From contig NZ_MQUS01000009.1 of the NCBI RefSeq assembly GCF_001953885.1, positions 62,277 to 126,276 of the forward strand: 64,000 nt of DNA. The letters run 5' to 3'. Below, piece by piece: positions 2,702 to 15,006 of the stretch. How positions within the stretch are numbered: position 1 is the stretch's first letter; each line of letters starts with the position of its first letter. The notes beneath the pieces are model-generated. The model saw nothing but the letters and a program-made list of their open reading frames with translations, did not search any database and had not been told where the DNA came from. This DNA is from Streptomyces sp. IMTB 2501. Lineage in GTDB: Bacteria; Actinomycetota; Actinomycetes; Streptomycetales; Streptomycetaceae. Made by a program: the position numbers and the translations under genes.

Positions 2702-2856
2702 CCGGAATCGGCGTGACCTGCCAACTCCCCTGTTTCTGCGAGTAATTTGTGAGACCGGTGAACAACTCTGAGGCGGTGTCCGTATGGAAGGGCGCCGCTT
2801 CACTCCTGTCGGGCGCCCCGATGCTGCCCCGCTCGCAAGGAAGTCAGAGGAGTTCC

Positions 2857-4386
2857 ATGGGACGCAACACACGAAAACGCCGTACGCCGCTGGCCACCAA
2901 GGCCATAGCCGCATCGGCGGCCCTAGCGCTCGGTGGGGGCGGGCTGATCTGGGCGAACTTCTATGCCTCCGCGCACGAGTCGAACAACCAGACGTGGGGA
3001 GGCAACCAGACGAAGGCCGCGACGGCGCAGGTCGCGACGATCTCATGCCCGGACGTCCAGCAGAAGCTGACCAACGTGCCCTGGCGGGCCCGCCAGGGCG
3101 TGGCGACCGAGCTGGCCAACCTCGACAAGCAGATCACCGAGGCCTACACCCGGCTCGCCTCCACCCGGGACGCGCAGTCCAAGGACCCGAGCTTCGTGCA
3201 GAACGCGATCGTCGGCCCTCTCAAGGACAAGCGGGCCGCGACGATCGACCGGATTCGCATCGACATCCAGCGGGTCGGCGGGTCGGTCAACGGCTGGCTG
3301 TCCCAGCTCGCCGCCTGTACGACCCAGACCGCCAACCAGACCACCGCCGGGGGGCAGCAGCAGAACAACGGTGGTCAACAGCAGAACAACGGCGGACAGC
3401 AGCAGAACAACGGCGGTCAGCAGCAGGGTGGCCAGCAGCAGGGCAACAACGGTGGCCAGGGCGGTGACGGCCCGGCCGCGGCGGACTTCGTGGACATCAC
3501 GAAGGTCGCCCCGAACGTCCAGGGCAAGCCGCAGAATCAGCAGAACGCCTCGACCGGCACGTTCATCACGCGCTGCGGCGTGAACGCGAACCAGAACCAC
3601 AACAGCGACAACGTGATCGTCGCCCCCGGTGTGACCAACGGTGCCCACCACGTGCACGACTACGTCGGCAACCAGAAGGTCAACGCGTTCTCCAGCAACC
3701 AGACGTTCCTGCAGGGCGGCACCAGCTGCCAGAACCGCAACGACCTGTCGGCGTACTACTGGCCGGTCATCCGCGAGCAGGACGGCACCCAGGAGAAGGA
3801 CGCGAACGCGGACGGCGGTGGCAAGGACCTCAACGTCGGCAAGATCCTGGTCGCCCAGCAGGCGCAGATCAAGTACGTCGGCAGCCCGGCGAGCAAGGTC
3901 GTCGCGATGCCGCAGTTCCTGCGGATCATCACCGGTGACGCCAAGGCCTTCGTCAACGGCCCGGGCAACGCCAACGCGCACTGGAGCTGCACCGGCTTCG
4001 AGAACAAGGTGCAGCTGACGGACAAGTACCCGATCTGTCCGCAGGGCAGCCAGGTGGTGCGCTCGTTCGCCTTCCAGAGCTGCTGGGACGGCGTGAACAT
4101 CGACAGCGCCAACCACCGCACGCACGTGGCCTTCGCCGACCCCGCGAGCGGGGTCTGCCCGAACGGCTTCAAGGCGATCCCGCAGCTGACGATGCGCCTC
4201 GTGTACAACGTGCCGCAGCCCGTCGTCCAGGCGGACGGCACGGTGAAGAACGCCTACGCGGTGGACGGCTTCCCGGAGGAGCTGCACAAGCCGATCACCG
4301 ATCACGACGACTTCATCAGCGTCACGACCGGCGGTCTGGCCAACAAGATCGCGAACTGCATCAACAGCGGTCGCAGGTGCGCCTGA
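2857..4386 (+). CDS. Secreted DUF1996 domain protein with Gln/Asn-rich linker
   Basis: A 509-residue exported protein. The start ATG follows a clear AGAGGAG ribosome site. Residues 1-45 form a basic then hydrophobic export signal. Residues about 50-160 are a helical, charged segment; 164-204 are a low-complexity linker of GGQQQNN repeats; the rest is a DUF1996 domain with the characteristic HHVHDYVGN motif, a Cys-rich core (TRCGVN, GTSCQN, HWSCTG, QSCWDG) and the [15 protein letters not shown]-like end. DUF1996 proteins are secreted in fungi and actinobacteria and have no established reaction. The transcript ends at a strong hairpin shared with the convergent lipoprotein gene. Confidence 0.88.
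3346..3468 (+). repeat. In-gene 21-bp repeats encoding GGQQQNN
   Basis: Inside the DUF1996 gene, about four copies of a 21-bp unit encode GGQQQNN, degenerating to GGQQQGN at the 3' end. The copies differ at wobble positions (ggt/ggc, caa/cag), so the peptide is conserved better than the DNA. It joins the helical N-terminal segment to the DUF1996 domain and is probably a flexible hydrophilic linker. Such repeats are prone to copy-number change between strains. Confidence 0.85.
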
Positions 4387-5001: not shown

Positions 5002-6921
5002 GTGCAGTCACAGGATGTAGCCCAGCGTCACGCCCCCGCCTCCGCCGGACAGCCCGGACCGGTCGACGTCGAGCAGGCCGAGGCCGCGCTCGTCGAGCAC
5101 TATCCACGGCTGGTCCGGATCGCCTACCTGGTGCTGCCACCCGGACTCGGCCGCAGCCGCCGGGTGCTGACCGCGCACTCCCTCGCCCAGCGCTCCCTGC
5201 CCAGCGGCCGGGGGCAGCAGCCCGTGATCCCGGCGCAGGCCTCGGGCGAGGACGGCGACCCCGGGTACGCCTTCCTGCGCGAGCGCGTCCTGACCACGGC
5301 CCTGGAGGCGGCCCGGCCCCGCAAGGGCCTGCCCCGGCTCTCCCAGCTGCCGCCGCTGCTGCCCCAGGTGTGGGGCCTCAAGCTGTTCCCGCGCTCCGGC
5401 GGCGCCGACGAACTCGCCCTGGACCAGCGGCTGTCCGCCCTGTCCGGCCCGGCCCGCGCCGCCTATGTGCTGCGCGGCCTGGAGCAGCTGTCGGACGCCG
5501 AGATCCGGGACCTGCTGACGGCCGCCGGGGTCGACGACCCGGGCGGCGCGCTGGCGCAGGCCAACGGCGTGCCCACCCAGCCCGCGCTGCTGGCCTCCGC
5601 CGAGTTCGACCCCTGTCTACTGCAGGCCCGGCCCACGGATCTGATGCGCCGCCGCCAGCACTCCAAGGCCGCGCTCGCCGCCGCCGCGGCGCTCGCGGTG
5701 TGCGGGGCGCTGATCTCCCTGCCCGGCGACGGCTGGGGCCCCGACGGCGCCGCCGCGCCCGTCTACGCCGGGAACCCGGCCGCCGAGGCCGCCCTCGACC
5801 CGGCCCGGCTGATCCGGGTCACCCCCACCGCCTGGGAGTCCGCCGCCCGCACCGACTTCTCGGTGTGGCCCGCGCGCGGCCAGCTCACCGGAGACTCCGG
5901 GCTGCTGCGCCGCGCCCTCGCCGTATGGGCCCGCCCCGGCGCGACGGTCCATGTCTCGGCGACGGTCGGCACCGAGCCCGGCGGCCCGGCCGGCCCGCCC
6001 CAGCTGCTGTACGCGGGCCAGGTGGACAACGCCCGCGTGGTCGTGTTCTACGACGGTCTGCGCATCGCCCGGTACGCCGAGCCGGTCGACGGCACCCAGG
6101 GCGCGGCCCTCGACTTCGCCCGTGCCGACGGCGCGACCGGCGCCGAGGCGAGCGCGCTGGTGCTGGGCCGTTCCGACGGCAACGTGCAGTATCTGACCGC
6201 GCCCTGGGTGCAGAAGGCGGCCTCCCGGAACCTGATGAAGCCGGACTCGTCCGCAACCTCGCTGAAGGTCACCAACGGTGTCACGGCACCGCTGGCCAGC
6301 CCCGCGCTGCGCCCCGGCAACTGCACCTCCTGGACGGTGCTCCAGCTGACCGACGCCTCCGGCACCGCTGTCACCACCGACCTGGGCGAGCTGGTGCCCG
6401 CCCACCTCACCGTCGGCAGGCCCGGCTCACCCGGCGAGGTGTCCGACGCCGCAGGGCGCGCCGCCTGGGCACCGTTCGCCTGCTCGCTGGCGGCGGAGCG
6501 CTCGGTCGGGGTGCGCAGCGTCAACGCCTGGTCGTACGCCGACCAGCCGCTGCCCGACGGCAGCGGGGCGGCCGAGTGGATGTGCACCAGGGCCGAGACC
6601 TGGCGCGGCGACGGTACGGGCGCGCTCGCCCAGTTCCGCACGCCGGGCGGACGGTCGGCGGCGGTGGTCGCCAAGGGCACGGATGCGCTGTCCTGCGGGC
6701 CGCGTGATCCCCATGTGCTCGCCGGCGTGAAGTGGAAGTCCGCGTCCGGGCACTGGTACCTGCTGGCGGCGGGCGACAAGGACACGGCGTCGATCCATGC
6801 GGGGGGCGGGGTCACCGCCGCCGGACAGGGCCAGTTCCTGGTTGCCCGGGCCAAGCAGGGGGCCCGGGCCACGCTGAAGGGCACACTGGAGAACGGTCAG
6901 GCGATCAACGGGTTGCAGTAG
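5002..6921 (+). CDS. Membrane protein with degenerate ECF-sigma-like N-terminus
   Basis: A 639-residue protein not assigned to a named family. Residues about 20-190 resemble an ECF sigma factor that has lost its usual core: EHYPRLVRIAYLVLPPG is like sigma region 2.1, and LSALSGPARAAYVLRGLEQLSDAEIRDLL is like the region 4 helices. One membrane segment follows at about 222-240 (SKAALAAAAALAVCGALISL), then a roughly 400-residue, probably extracytoplasmic domain with paired Cys (GNCTSW, PFACSL, EWMCTR, LSCGPR). The start is GTG at 5002 with a weak ribosome site, so it is less certain than the rest. It could be a membrane-tethered regulator or a sigma-derived scaffold. Confidence 0.75.
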   Translation: MQSQDVAQRHAPASAGQPGPVDVEQAEAALVEHYPRLVRIAYLVLPPGLGRSRRVLTAHSLAQRSLPSGRGQQPVIPAQASGEDGDPGYAFLRERVLTTALEAARPRKGLPRLSQLPPLLPQVWGLKLFPRSGGADELALDQRLSALSGPARAAYVLRGLEQLSDAEIRDLLTAAGVDDPGGALAQANGVPTQPALLASAEFDPCLLQARPTDLMRRRQHSKAALAAAAALAVCGALISLPGDGWGPDGAAAPVYAGNPAAEAALDPARLIRVTPTAWESAARTDFSVWPARGQLTGDSGLLRRALAVWARPGATVHVSATVGTEPGGPAGPPQLLYAGQVDNARVVVFYDGLRIARYAEPVDGTQGAALDFARADGATGAEASALVLGRSDGNVQYLTAPWVQKAASRNLMKPDSSATSLKVTNGVTAPLASPALRPGNCTSWTVLQLTDASGTAVTTDLGELVPAHLTVGRPGSPGEVSDAAGRAAWAPFACSLAAERSVGVRSVNAWSYADQPLPDGSGAAEWMCTRAETWRGDGTGALAQFRTPGGRSAAVVAKGTDALSCGPRDPHVLAGVKWKSASGHWYLLAAGDKDTASIHAGGGVTAAGQGQFLVARAKQGARATLKGTLENGQAINGLQ

Positions 6922-6997
6922 GACGTTGCTGACATCCGTGTAAACAAGCTCTGCCACGGGGGTTCTCAGCAGGCCTACCCGCCAGTACATTGACGCC

Positions 6998-7876
6998 ATG
7001 TCTAACACGCAGGCCCGGGTGCCGCTCAAGGCACGCAAGGTGTCCTTCTCCTGGGACGGCACGCCGCTGCACTGGGTGCCGGGGGATCCGTTCACCACGC
7101 ACACCATCAACGTGCTGCACCTGCTGCTGCCCGCCGGTGAGCGATGGTTCGTGCACGTGTACAAGCAGGTGCTGCCGTACATACGCGACGAACGGCTCCG
7201 CGAGGACGTCATCGGGTTCATCGGCCAGGAGGCGATGCACTCCCAGGCCCATGACGAGGTGCTGCCACACCTGCGCGAGCAGGGCCTCGACCCGACGCCG
7301 TACACCGCGCAGGTCGACTGGTTCTTCGAGAAGCTGCTCGGTGACCGGACACTGCCGCCGGGCCGGCCGCGCCGGTGGTGGCTGATGGAGCGGGTCGCGC
7401 TCATCGCCGCGATCGAGCACTACACCGCGTTCCTCGGCAACTGGGTGCTCAACGCCGAGGAACTCGACCGGCGCGGCGCCGACCCGACCATGCTGGACCT
7501 GCTGCGCTGGCACGGCGCGGAGGAGGTCGAGCACCGCTCCGTCGCCTTCGAGCTGTTCACGCACGTCGACGGCAGCTACAGCCGACGGGTACGGACCTGG
7601 GCGACGGCCTTCTCGGCGCTGGTGTTCCTGTGGCAGCGCGGGGCGCGCTTCTTCATGGAGAACGACCCGACCCTCATCGACGGCAGGGCGAGCTTCAAGG
7701 ACTTCTACGTCCGCGGCAGGCGCGGTCTGCTCCCCGGCACCGGGGACATGGTCCGGTCCATCCCCCGCTATCTGAGCCGCGGTTACCACCCCTCGCAGGA
7801 GGGCGACACCGAGCAGGCCGTCGCCTATCTGGCCTCCTCCCCCGCGGCCACGGCGGCGGAGAAGAGGGCCGCCTGA
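6998..7876 (+). CDS. Ferritin-like di-iron protein (PF10118 'metal-dependent hydrolase' family)
   Basis: A 292-residue soluble, mostly helical protein. Databases label this family a predicted metal-dependent hydrolase, but the residues match a four-helix di-iron carboxylate centre: Glu49 (PAGERWF), Glu78-x2-His81 (GQEAMHSQ), Glu140 (AAIEHYTAF) and Glu176-x2-His179 (AEEVEHRS). That pattern is typical of oxygen-activating proteins. The gene's TGA overlaps the ATG of a ferredoxin reductase (ATGA), suggesting an oxygenase with its own electron donor (inference). The TetR gene behind them is a likely local regulator. The substrate is unknown. Confidence 0.82.
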   Translation: MSNTQARVPLKARKVSFSWDGTPLHWVPGDPFTTHTINVLHLLLPAGERWFVHVYKQVLPYIRDERLREDVIGFIGQEAMHSQAHDEVLPHLREQGLDPTPYTAQVDWFFEKLLGDRTLPPGRPRRWWLMERVALIAAIEHYTAFLGNWVLNAEELDRRGADPTMLDLLRWHGAEEVEHRSVAFELFTHVDGSYSRRVRTWATAFSALVFLWQRGARFFMENDPTLIDGRASFKDFYVRGRRGLLPGTGDMVRSIPRYLSRGYHPSQEGDTEQAVAYLASSPAATAAEKRAA

Positions 7877-8898
7877 TGCCCAGGCTGCGTACTGTCGCGC
7901 TCCTCGCGGGCGCCGCCCTGCTGACCCGGCAGGCCCTGCGCCGCCGTATCCAGGTCTCGCCGCTGTGGCCGATGCCCGCGCTGGAGGAGCCCATTTCGGG
8001 CCGTCCGCGCTCGCGGGCGCTGCGGCTGCTGGTGACCTCGCACGAGACCGTGGCCGACGGGGTCGTTCAGCTCCGTCTCGAAGGGCCGGACCTGCCCCGC
8101 TGGGAGCCCGGCGCGCATCTCGACCTCGTCCTGCCGTCGGGGCTCGTCCGGCAGTACTCGCTGTGCGGTGACCCCGAGGACACCTCCTCGTACACCGTCG
8201 CGACCCGGCTGGTCGAGAACGGGCGGGGCGGCTCGCGCGAGGTCCACGAGCAGGTGACGGAGGGCATGGAACTGGAGGTGCGGGGGCCCCGGAACCGTTT
8301 TCCGCTGGTCGAGGCCGAGTCGTACGTCTTCGTCGCCGGCGGGATCGGGATCACCCCACTGCTGCCGATGCTGCGGGCACTCCCGGAGAACGCCGAGTGG
8401 CGGCTGCTGTACGCGGGGCGCGACAGGGCCTCGATGCCCTTCCTGGAGGAGGTCGAGAAGCTGGGCCGCGACCAGGTGACCGTCGTGGAGGGGCGGCCGG
8501 ACCTCGACGCGCTGGAGGTGAGCGAAGGGGCCACCGTCTACGCCTGCGGTCCCGAGGGGCTCATGGCGGCCGCCACGGCACGCTTCCCGGACGTCCGTCT
8601 CGAACGCTTCACGCCCCGTACGTCGTCCGAGGGCAACACGGAGTTCGAGGTCGAACTCCGGCGCAGCGGGCGGACCTTGACCGTACCGGCCGACTCCACC
8701 GTGCTGGCCGCCGTACGCCGGGAACTGCCGGACACCGCCTACTCCTGTGAGCAGGGGTTCTGCGGGACCTGTCAACAGCGGGTGCTGGAAGGGGAGATCG
8801 ACCACCGGGACGAGCTGCTGACGGACGAGGAGCGCGCCGACTCGATGCTGATCTGTGTGTCGCGGTCCCGGAGCGATCGTTTGGCGCTCGACATGTGA
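7876..8898 (+). CDS. Ferredoxin reductase with C-terminal [2Fe-2S] domain (PDR/VanB type)
   Basis: A 340-residue flavin oxidoreductase moving electrons from NAD(P)H through flavin to a plant-type iron-sulfur cluster. Order: hydrophobic N-terminus (residues 5-20), flavin domain with RQYSLCGDP, nucleotide-binding domain with VAGGIGITPLLPM and VYACGPEGLM, and a 2Fe-2S domain with CEQGFCGTCQQ plus a distal Cys in MLICVSRS, giving all four ligands. The start overlaps the stop of the di-iron gene by one base, so both should be made together. It is probably the reductase of that protein; the N-terminal hydrophobic stretch may attach it to the membrane. Confidence 0.9.
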   Translation: MPRLRTVALLAGAALLTRQALRRRIQVSPLWPMPALEEPISGRPRSRALRLLVTSHETVADGVVQLRLEGPDLPRWEPGAHLDLVLPSGLVRQYSLCGDPEDTSSYTVATRLVENGRGGSREVHEQVTEGMELEVRGPRNRFPLVEAESYVFVAGGIGITPLLPMLRALPENAEWRLLYAGRDRASMPFLEEVEKLGRDQVTVVEGRPDLDALEVSEGATVYACGPEGLMAAATARFPDVRLERFTPRTSSEGNTEFEVELRRSGRTLTVPADSTVLAAVRRELPDTAYSCEQGFCGTCQQRVLEGEIDHRDELLTDEERADSMLICVSRSRSDRLALDM

Positions 8899-8932
8899 AC
8901 ACCTGCGGCCGGAACCGATCGGTAAGGTGTTC
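8897..8932. promoter_or_regulatory. Nested inverted repeat before the tetR gene
   Basis: GAACACCT (8897-8904) and AGGTGTTC (8925-8932) are perfect 8-bp arms around 20 nt, which hold a second palindrome ACCGATCGGT (8914-8923). The element overlaps the stop codon of the reductase gene and ends 2 bp before the tetR ATG. It could be an autoregulatory operator or an RNA hairpin covering the tetR start. Confidence 0.55.
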
Positions 8933-8934
8933 GC

Positions 8935-9624
8935 ATGAGTACCGAGGTTCGCCGCAGGATGGGCGTCGAGGAGCGGCGGCAGCAGCTGATCGGCGTCGCT
9001 CTCGACCTGTTCAGCCAGCGCTCGCCCGACGAGGTCTCCATCGATGAGATAGCGACGGCGGCAGGCATCTCACGCCCGCTGGTGTACCACTACTTCCCCG
9101 GCAAACTCAGCCTGTACGAAGCCGCGTTGAAGCGTGCCGCGCAGGATCTCGCGGACCGCTTCGCCGAGCCGCGCCAGGGCCCGCTCGGCGCCCGGCTGCT
9201 GCGCGTGATGCGCCGCTACTTCGACTTCGTGGAGGAGCACGGCCCCGGTTTCTCGGCGCTGATGCGCGGCGGACCGGCCGTGGGCTCCTCCGCGACCAAC
9301 GCCCTCATCGACTCCGTGCGCCAGGCCGCCTACGAGCACATGCTGGCGCACCTCGACATCACCGCGGTCCCCCCGCGCCTGGAACTGGTCGTGCGCTCCT
9401 GGATCTCCCTCGCCGAGTCCACGGCGCTGATCTGGCTGGACGGCAGGCGTATTCCGCGCAGGGAGCTGGAGATCCAGCTGGTGCACGACTTCGCCGCGCT
9501 GGCCGCCGTCAGCGCCGCCTACGACGAGGACATGGCGGGCCTGCTGAAGAAGATGGTCAAGGACGAGCCGGCCGACGGCCACTTGGCGGACCTCGTCGGC
9601 CGGCTCATCTCCCTGGGTTTCTAG
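8935..9624 (+). CDS. TetR/AcrR-family transcriptional regulator
   Basis: A 229-residue regulator. The N-terminal DNA-binding domain is classical: RRQQLIGVALDLFSQRSPDEVSIDEIA, recognition helix near AAGISRPLVYHYF (about residues 42-54), followed by PGKLSLYEAAL. The C-terminal helical ligand-binding domain contains no diagnostic motif. It lies 36 bp behind the di-iron protein/reductase pair in the same direction and probably controls that unit. The gap holds a nested inverted repeat that could be its operator. It converges on the amylopullulanase gene with 6 bp between stops. Confidence 0.9.
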   Translation: MSTEVRRRMGVEERRQQLIGVALDLFSQRSPDEVSIDEIATAAGISRPLVYHYFPGKLSLYEAALKRAAQDLADRFAEPRQGPLGARLLRVMRRYFDFVEEHGPGFSALMRGGPAVGSSATNALIDSVRQAAYEHMLAHLDITAVPPRLELVVRSWISLAESTALIWLDGRRIPRRELEIQLVHDFAALAAVSAAYDEDMAGLLKKMVKDEPADGHLADLVGRLISLGF

Positions 9625-9630
9625 GGACGG

Positions 9631-15006
<5,376 letters not shown>

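Follow-up and report, generated by a model that had tools for sequence, protein, structure and literature searches.

Examination of a 64,000-nucleotide stretch of DNA from Streptomyces sp. IMTB 2501 (contig NZ_MQUS01000009.1, positions 62,277 to 126,276; the whole stretch is called the window below) points to a gene of the Pfam family PF10118, labelled 'metal-dependent hydrolase', as that of a putative di-iron oxygenase component. The encoded protein is very probably an O2-activating di-iron enzyme fed by the reductase encoded next to it, a reading adopted because of invariant ligands, ferritin-like fold matches, conserved reductase coupling and the use of another redox chain by a sister branch. 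A first-pass annotation of this DNA had proposed a di-iron O2-activating enzyme with its own reductase, hidden by the 'hydrolase' label, and this core proposal is well supported by sequence, predicted fold and gene context, the gene neighbourhoods being the best evidence for it. The best reading of the system would be an NAD(P)H-dependent di-iron oxygenase with a dedicated reductase and a TetR regulator, acting as an epoxidase in some lineages; most likely the PF10118 protein puts oxygen into hydrophobic molecules, perhaps as epoxides, and an epoxidase role proper is put forward tentatively.

All three genes lie on the plus strand in the order previously described: the PF10118 ('Metal_hydrol') gene (292 amino acids, 6998-7876), identified by its Pfam match, conserved residues and a structural model; the gene of a reductase of the phthalate dioxygenase reductase (PDR)/VanB type (340 amino acids, 7876-8898), identified by domain matches and solved relatives and regarded as the candidate electron donor; and the gene of a TetR regulator with the Pfam domains TetR_N and TetR_C_46 (8935-9624). 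The overlap reported between the first two genes is also present and amounts to one base, common to the PF10118 stop codon TGA (7874-7876) and the reductase ATG (7876-7878). The first protein matches PF10118 with 262.3 bits against a cut-off of 33.2, and this is its sole Pfam family at E-values up to 0.1. It is the one PF10118 match in the window's own genome, and its closest named relatives are from Streptomyces.

Conservation of the putative metal site

Regarding the metal site, translation places the codon of E48 at 7139-7141, and translation together with alignment places the helix 2 metal motif QExxH (Q77-E78-x-x-H81) at 7226-7240, the predicted helix 3 ligand E140 at 7415-7417 and the helix 4 motif HxxEExxH (H172-x-x-E175-E176-x-x-H179) at 7511-7534, all on the plus strand, the last being placed additionally by an hhalign comparison with the IHVxEEARH block of the AurF family. 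The ligand list of the first-pass annotation thus stood for E78, H81, E140, E176 and H179, while its 'E49' did not, as residue 49 is an arginine and the first-helix glutamate is E48; Q77, H85, H172 and E175, which were absent from that list, are conserved about as strongly as the listed ligands. The full set in the PF10118 protein is E48 / QE78xxH81 / E140 / H172xxEE176xxH179, in which H172 is the third histidine. By its sequence the protein carries, on predicted helices, the E, ExxH, E, ExxH ligand set of ferritin-like di-iron oxygenases and oxidases; its third histidine, H172, makes the predicted site AurF/CylC-like.

E48, Q77, E78, H81, E140, H172, E175, E176 and H179 are identical in all 154 aligned homologues (the alignment was limited to rows of 241 to 359 residues), and these nine positions were likewise unvarying in an earlier set of 55 homologues. 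F74, W171 and E178 are also invariant in the larger alignment, and H85 is found in 153 of the 154 rows. The loose pattern ExxH...E...ExxH turns up in 1041 of 20000 shuffled versions of the protein and is therefore weak alone, while the fuller pattern E-ExxH-E-HxxxExxH arises in 8 of 20000; conservation is a stronger test of the predicted metal site than such estimates of motif chance.

Predicted fold and profile comparisons

AlphaFold2, given 43 sequences comprising the window's protein and its close relatives, all from Streptomyces, returned a best model with a predicted local distance difference test score (pLDDT) of 87.2 and a predicted template modelling score (pTM) of 0.86, the other four of the five models having mean pLDDT values from 79 to 69. 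In the best model the four motif groups fall on four long predicted helices (residues 31-61, 65-94, 123-151 and 163-190). A Foldseek search with this model returned 309 rows, the best 50 of which, all ferritin-like proteins, include ribonucleotide reductase R2, R2lox, toluene-4-monooxygenase, CmlI, VlmB, aldehyde-deformylating oxidase and plant acyl-acyl carrier protein (acyl-ACP) desaturases; the 50 rows listed by VIA-align are all R2, R2lox or CmlI, at Z 13.5-11.9. The structure prediction suggested in the first-pass annotation has thus yielded a model that resembles ferritin-like di-metal proteins, with match scores that are weak.

Independently of the AlphaFold2 model, the PF10118 profile was compared by hhalign with 29 AurF-family sequences (E = 0.0012), and this alignment sets EAMH of the PF10118 protein over ExxH of the AurF family and WHGAEEVEH over IHVxEEARH. 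Among the controls, AurF against R2 gave a similarly strong E = 0.00093, five unrelated families gave 0.077-0.47 and PF10118 against R2 gave 0.045, so that kinship with R2 by profile comparison is weak and was set aside. Neither the PF10118 protein nor a 15-row profile found a credible relative among the sequences of solved structures, and no PF10118 relatives were found in the viral contigs searched. Predicted fold and motif taken jointly are good but not decisive support for a di-iron enzyme.

The reductase and its link to PF10118

The second protein has Fer2 and NAD_binding_1 matches above the Pfam cut-offs, and its best solved relatives are the P450 chains 6kbh and 6laa, of the CYP116B kind, followed by phthalate dioxygenase reductase 2pia. 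The four [2Fe-2S] cysteines noticed earlier are indeed present (C291, C296, C299 and C327, numbered from the ATG at 7876; 8746-8856, plus strand, from the translation), and the spacing C-x4-C-x2-C...C occurs in 167 of 173 related reductases from the surveyed loci. In sequence the protein is of the PDR/VanB type, having the predicted flavin and NAD regions and, at the C terminus, a [2Fe-2S] region with four cysteines. A membrane-anchored reductase was considered and dropped, the N-terminal extension being mildly hydrophobic at most. The nearest intact paralogue of the reductase in the window's genome, its one other strong relative there (53% identity), is grouped with a Rieske oxygenase of the VanA type.

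Gene neighbourhoods were compared in 80 loci around close PF10118 homologues (79 from Streptomyces and one from Microtetraspora; the close loci). The PDR reductase is the next gene after PF10118 in 79 of them and part of the same open reading frame (ORF) in the 80th, that of Streptomyces shenzhenensis (L133:6001-7953), in which PF10118 and reductase form one ORF of 650 residues that is either a natural fusion or a sequencing error; as this is one draft genome with a possible sequencing error, the ORF was dropped as proof of partnership by natural fusion. Sampling of 150 Streptomyces genomes found PF10118 in 94 and a reductase orthologue (E up to 1e-90) in 75, and 73 of the 75 have a PF10118 match no more than 600 bases away, the two exceptions being those of L332 and L333.

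Candidate electron donors across the PF10118 family

A sample of 394 genomes from the class contained PF10118 in 96 cases. A survey beyond Streptomyces covered 120 loci of Actinomycetota with 123 PF10118 genes, 68 in the window's subfamily and 55 in other branches; the split was made at a score of at least 320 against a home-made PF10118 model, with counts that agree with the fork of a quick tree. At least six listed places and the weakest matches lie outside this set, so that strong members are over-represented in it. A codon-score caller with a minimum of 70 codons supplied the genes, and home-made models or single seeds served to identify neighbouring reductase, TetR and other genes.

Of the 68 subfamily genes, 49 share their strand with a PDR gene no more than two genes away; a ferredoxin reductase accompanies 10, and nine lack both. 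The 10 ferredoxin-type loci form one clade, in which a small ferredoxin-like ORF of about 62 residues (C-x5-C-x3-C...CP) sits between the two genes; one reductase of this clade that was scanned has Pyr_redox_2 and Reductase_C domains, its best NCBIfam matches being dioxygenase ferredoxin reductases, below their cut-offs. A coupled electron supply is therefore present in the window's subfamily, in 79 of 80 close loci plus 59 of 68 others, and the pairing of reductase and PF10118 is an old conserved partnership with one donor swap rather than the result of repeated independent gains. Three of ten named records of a plasmid collection, those of a Dietzia and two Rhodococcus plasmids, also have a PDR gene adjoining PF10118.

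Neither donor adjoins any of the 55 genes of the other PF10118 branch, and no adjacent donor was found for the 20 genes of a second Streptomyces branch, 19 of which stand in the order M24 / EphD-like / PF10118 / MerR. The first-pass annotation had called for a survey of PF10118 neighbours and had named a lack of association with reductases as grounds for abandoning its proposal; the association is found in the window's subfamily but is not family-wide, and since the link is absent from two branches, such a lack applies in part to the PF10118 family and not to the window's subfamily.

Other surroundings of PF10118 were seen in these surveys. In the branch without reductase neighbours, a PDR gene lies three to four genes from PF10118 in one locus (L230), and tandem PF10118 pairs stand beside FMO-type genes in this and two further loci (L199, L220). 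On Acinetobacter plasmids (L060, L338), a distant PF10118 gene lies near a set of ferredoxin, P450 and FAD-dependent oxidoreductase genes and two thioesterase genes, with a piece of IS5 between PF10118 and the P450 set.

Epoxide-hydrolase-like genes near PF10118 in relatives

The inducible detoxification or lipid-modification system proposed in the first-pass annotation goes beyond the present data; in relatives of the window's gene, the neighbours suggest epoxide chemistry. An epoxide-hydrolase-like alpha/beta hydrolase is encoded within three genes on the same strand for 38 of the 68 subfamily genes outside Streptomyces, as against none of the 55 genes of the other branch, and 37 of these 38 neighbours have a recognisable Asp nucleophile motif (as do 64 of 68 such genes overall). 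The hydrolase is fused to a short-chain dehydrogenase (SDR) in 22 of the 38, which is the architecture described for EphD, an enzyme that, according to the available part of the source, opens a stearic acid epoxide and modifies epoxymycolates (PMC7998700). For one stand-alone hydrolase, 16 of 17 solved relatives (E up to 1e-10) are epoxide hydrolases, the remaining one being a fluoroacetate dehalogenase.

Regarding the plasmids, that of Rhodococcus fascians carries TetR, PF10118, PDR and a gene with a limonene-1,2-epoxide-hydrolase domain (55.7 bits against a cut-off of 24), and the ends of these genes overlap; the Dietzia plasmid carries a long SDR-family gene, PF10118, PDR and TetR; and another Rhodococcus plasmid carries genes for a fatty-acid ligase and an aldehyde dehydrogenase followed by PF10118, PDR, an FMO-like gene and an SDR. 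Two unrelated epoxide-hydrolase folds thus adjoin the same pair of genes, which argues for an epoxide product in those lineages.

In the window's own genome (C34:99000-113000, L330), M24-like, EphD-like and MerR genes stand together, and related Streptomyces have PF10118 among them; a decaying PF10118 remnant lies at the matching spot in another locus (L334).

Proposed mechanism and alternative explanations

In the mechanism proposed here, the PF10118 protein would act as oxygenase in a di-iron monooxygenase that has two components and depends on NAD(P)H, with two irons held between the helices by E48, E78, H81, E140, H172, E176 and H179 and with Q77 and E175 as second-shell partners. Electrons would pass in the reductase from NAD(P)H through the flavin to the [2Fe-2S] cluster, after which the reduced reductase would dock on the PF10118 protein and reduce its di-iron site, allowing it to activate O2 and to incorporate one atom of oxygen into a substrate that is hydrophobic and probably unsaturated. 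Some members of the subfamily would place the oxygen across a double bond, with an epoxide as the likely product, which would then be handled by the neighbouring epoxide hydrolase and short-chain dehydrogenase.

An oxidative route of the limonene type leads from alkene to epoxide, diol, ketone and ester. It is conceivable, though doubtful, from the present sequence comparisons that PF10118 includes an overlooked family of AurF/CylC-like three-histidine di-iron epoxygenases that start a route of this kind for lipids or terpenes; their partners would be the PDR reductase, an epoxide hydrolase of the EphD or limonene type, a dehydrogenase and, at certain loci, a monooxygenase of the FMO type.

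Several observations weigh against the interpretation of the PF10118 protein as a reductase-fed di-iron oxygenase that may form epoxides. Regarding the fold, the top Foldseek E-value is 0.013 and none is at or below 0.001; a Z of about 13, as given by VIA-align, is borderline for helical bundles according to the tool's own note, and VIA-align was run on Foldseek's own top chains, which makes it a re-alignment rather than a separate search. The AurF hhalign result has a probability of 19% over 93 columns with the helix 3 glutamate out of register. Regarding the electron donor, its type switches four times on the tree, so that many loci amount to few independent events; the other seven of the ten plasmid records (Burkholderia, three Acinetobacter, Mycolicibacterium, Tsukamurella and Nostoc) have no PDR among their annotated or scanned genes; and two Streptomyces genomes (L332, L333) keep the upstream gene, the reductase and TetR with no PF10118 remnant found. 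Regarding the epoxide, no epoxide hydrolase is found within three genes in the 80 loci of the window's clade or in the 10 of the ferredoxin clade, the EphD-like gene of the window's genome stands elsewhere, in an M24 / EphD-like / MerR group that lacks PF10118, and a haloalkane dehalogenase model weakly matches the stand-alone hydrolase (43 bits against a cut-off of 241). The EphD-like gene is moreover present in 140 of the 150 Streptomyces genomes regardless of PF10118, and a tie between the two genes within Streptomyces was dropped on comparing these 140 with the 94 genomes that have PF10118.

The absence of epoxide hydrolases from the window's clade would also fit a di-iron oxygenase that is a lipid hydroxylase or desaturase and not an epoxidase, the epoxide-hydrolase-like genes of relatives then serving another step. 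This alternative is a serious one, if short of probable: some relatives adjoin acyl-CoA ligase, carboxylic-acid-reductase-like, FMO and SDR genes, and acyl-ACP desaturases are among Foldseek's best 50 of 309 rows, but two unrelated epoxide-hydrolase folds stand beside the pair in relatives, and the ligand set has a third histidine where most hydroxylases, in the available part of one description, have two (PMC12101540). The same third histidine, as in AzoC/AurF (PMC6783550, in part), the QExxH and HxxDExxH pattern of CylC/NocO with Glu replacing Asp at one position (PMC12101540, in part) and the profile alignment with the AurF family would agree with an AurF-like N-oxygenase or a CylC-like halogenase. 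Such an enzyme is nevertheless unlikely here, as there is no AurF Pfam match, no carrier protein was found among the scanned neighbours (genes below 70 codons being dropped by the caller), and the neighbours are lipid, epoxide-hydrolase-like and SDR genes.

R2 and R2lox are the best structural neighbours, and instead of oxygenating a substrate the protein could accordingly be a non-catalytic or redox-sensing ferritin-like protein of the R2 or R2lox kind. Its dedicated reductase and its pathway-type neighbours agree with turnover, however, and HxxxExxH can be aligned with the AurF family, the R2 profile comparison being weaker, which makes this explanation quite improbable. A true metal-dependent hydrolase, with a reductase that is co-regulated and functionally unrelated, would be in line with the Pfam name, with the two genomes that retain reductase and TetR without PF10118 and with the absence of an adjacent donor from all 55 genes of the other branch and all 20 of the second Streptomyces branch. 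It is highly improbable given the invariant ferritin-like ligand set, the ferritin-like fold matches and the two different donors in sister branches; the literature searched yielded no report of hydrolase activity, and the listing of one PF10118 group as a candidate protease was made by label and correlation.

Regulation and flanking genes

A TetR relative is encoded within three genes downstream in 77 of the 80 close loci, being the second gene in 64, and TetR is likely to act as a local, ligand-relieved repressor. Upstream conservation revealed the element CGCCAGTACATTGACG (6980-6995, plus strand), which ends two bases 5' of the PF10118 ATG; TACATTGAC, just upstream of PF10118 and ending three bases ahead of its ATG, recurs in 77 of the 80 close loci. 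The CGCCAGTACATTGACG element contains a -10-like hexamer, TACATT, and a partial inverted repeat, and in the genome it has one site with one mismatch and six with two mismatches, as against six matches of a reversed control pattern. The partial inverted repeat of 6980-6995 may be a TetR site, and the element may be a leaderless promoter, which on account of the TACATT hexamer explains it equally well. A proven TetR operator at this position was rejected, as one base of the left arm varies while its pairing base is kept.

Regarding the flanking genes, the upstream protein of 639 residues (5002-6921) has no Pfam match, its residues 89-172 being weakly like a SigE-family sigma factor (E = 0.055), and a relative of it directly precedes PF10118 in 68 of the 80 close loci. 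Further upstream, 2749-4386 encodes a protein with a central run of near-identical GGQQQNN repeats, as read from the translation. On the minus strand, 9631-15006 is an ORF of about 1790 residues, the translation of which, read by eye, resembles alpha-amylase and pullulanase-type parts.

Comparison with known systems

The 'metal-dependent hydrolase' label can mislead: a study of lanthipeptide proteases, the one paper in the literature searched to name PF10118, in its available part called a PF10118 group a metal-dependent hydrolase and, having correlated this group with precursors of lanthipeptides, treated it as a candidate protease (PMC8960859). Searches of the literature by COG3687, by the label with diiron terms and by other family names found no matching report in a corpus that has most subscription journals outside its scope, and among the matches listed the term 'metal-dependent hydrolase' was absent from the alkane literature. 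If PF10118 proteins are read as oxygenases, they become enzymes that have an electron supply of their own and are open to testing, and the lipid or terpene metabolism of actinobacteria may include a step that forms epoxides; if the epoxygenase reading is true, PF10118 beside EphD-like genes would be a candidate for lipid epoxide formation.

Regarding the partner proteins, the reductase shares with phthalate dioxygenase reductase and VanB the order of flavin, NAD and C-terminal [2Fe-2S] regions, and PGAP, an annotation pipeline, names its relatives 'PDR/VanB family oxidoreductase', but it is partnered with a PF10118 protein and not with a Rieske oxygenase. The neighbouring gene of relatives resembles the EphD-type epoxide hydrolase-dehydrogenase in its N-terminal alpha/beta hydrolase and C-terminal SDR (PMC7998700, in part); the window's operon has no such gene, and the likeness of the neighbouring gene to mycobacterial EphD is one of architecture.

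Ribonucleotide reductase R2 and R2lox give the best fold matches across most of the PF10118 protein and differ in the weak profile comparison (E = 0.045), in the H172 and Q77 of the PF10118 protein and in the flavin/[2Fe-2S] reductase that neighbours PF10118. BioE, in the available part of its description, has a site of four Glu and two His, a different pattern. The dimetal halogenases CylC and NocO have a pattern of nine residues, of which QExxH and HxxDExxH contain seven, and alanine at any of the nine in NocO abolished chlorination, according to the part of the source available (PMC12101540). The PF10118 protein, compared with them by this published description, has the QExxH motif and comes close to the nine-residue pattern, but E175 of its HxxEExxH replaces the Asp of HxxDExxH and no carrier protein occurs in the scanned neighbours.

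AurF, CmlI and AzoC (PF11583) share with the PF10118 protein the succession of E, acidic-ExxH, E and HxxxExxH, three histidines, similar spacing and an alignable HxxxExxH block, which reads IH(V/I)xEE(A/S)RH in all 29 AurF-family sequences collected. The ligands of AzoC are Glu102, Glu137, His140, Glu198, His225, Glu229 and His232 (PMC6783550, in part), with spacings of 35, 58 and 31 equivalent to the 30, 59 and 36 of E48-E78, H81-E140 and E140-E176 in the PF10118 protein. Unlike the AurF family, the PF10118 protein has no PF11583 match, carries Q77 where most of the AurF-family sequences collected have Asp or Glu, and has invariant W171 and E178, H85 in nearly all homologues and a reductase in its own operon. 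The PF10118 protein would work like the AurF/CylC group, though it stands outside the AurF family by its model.

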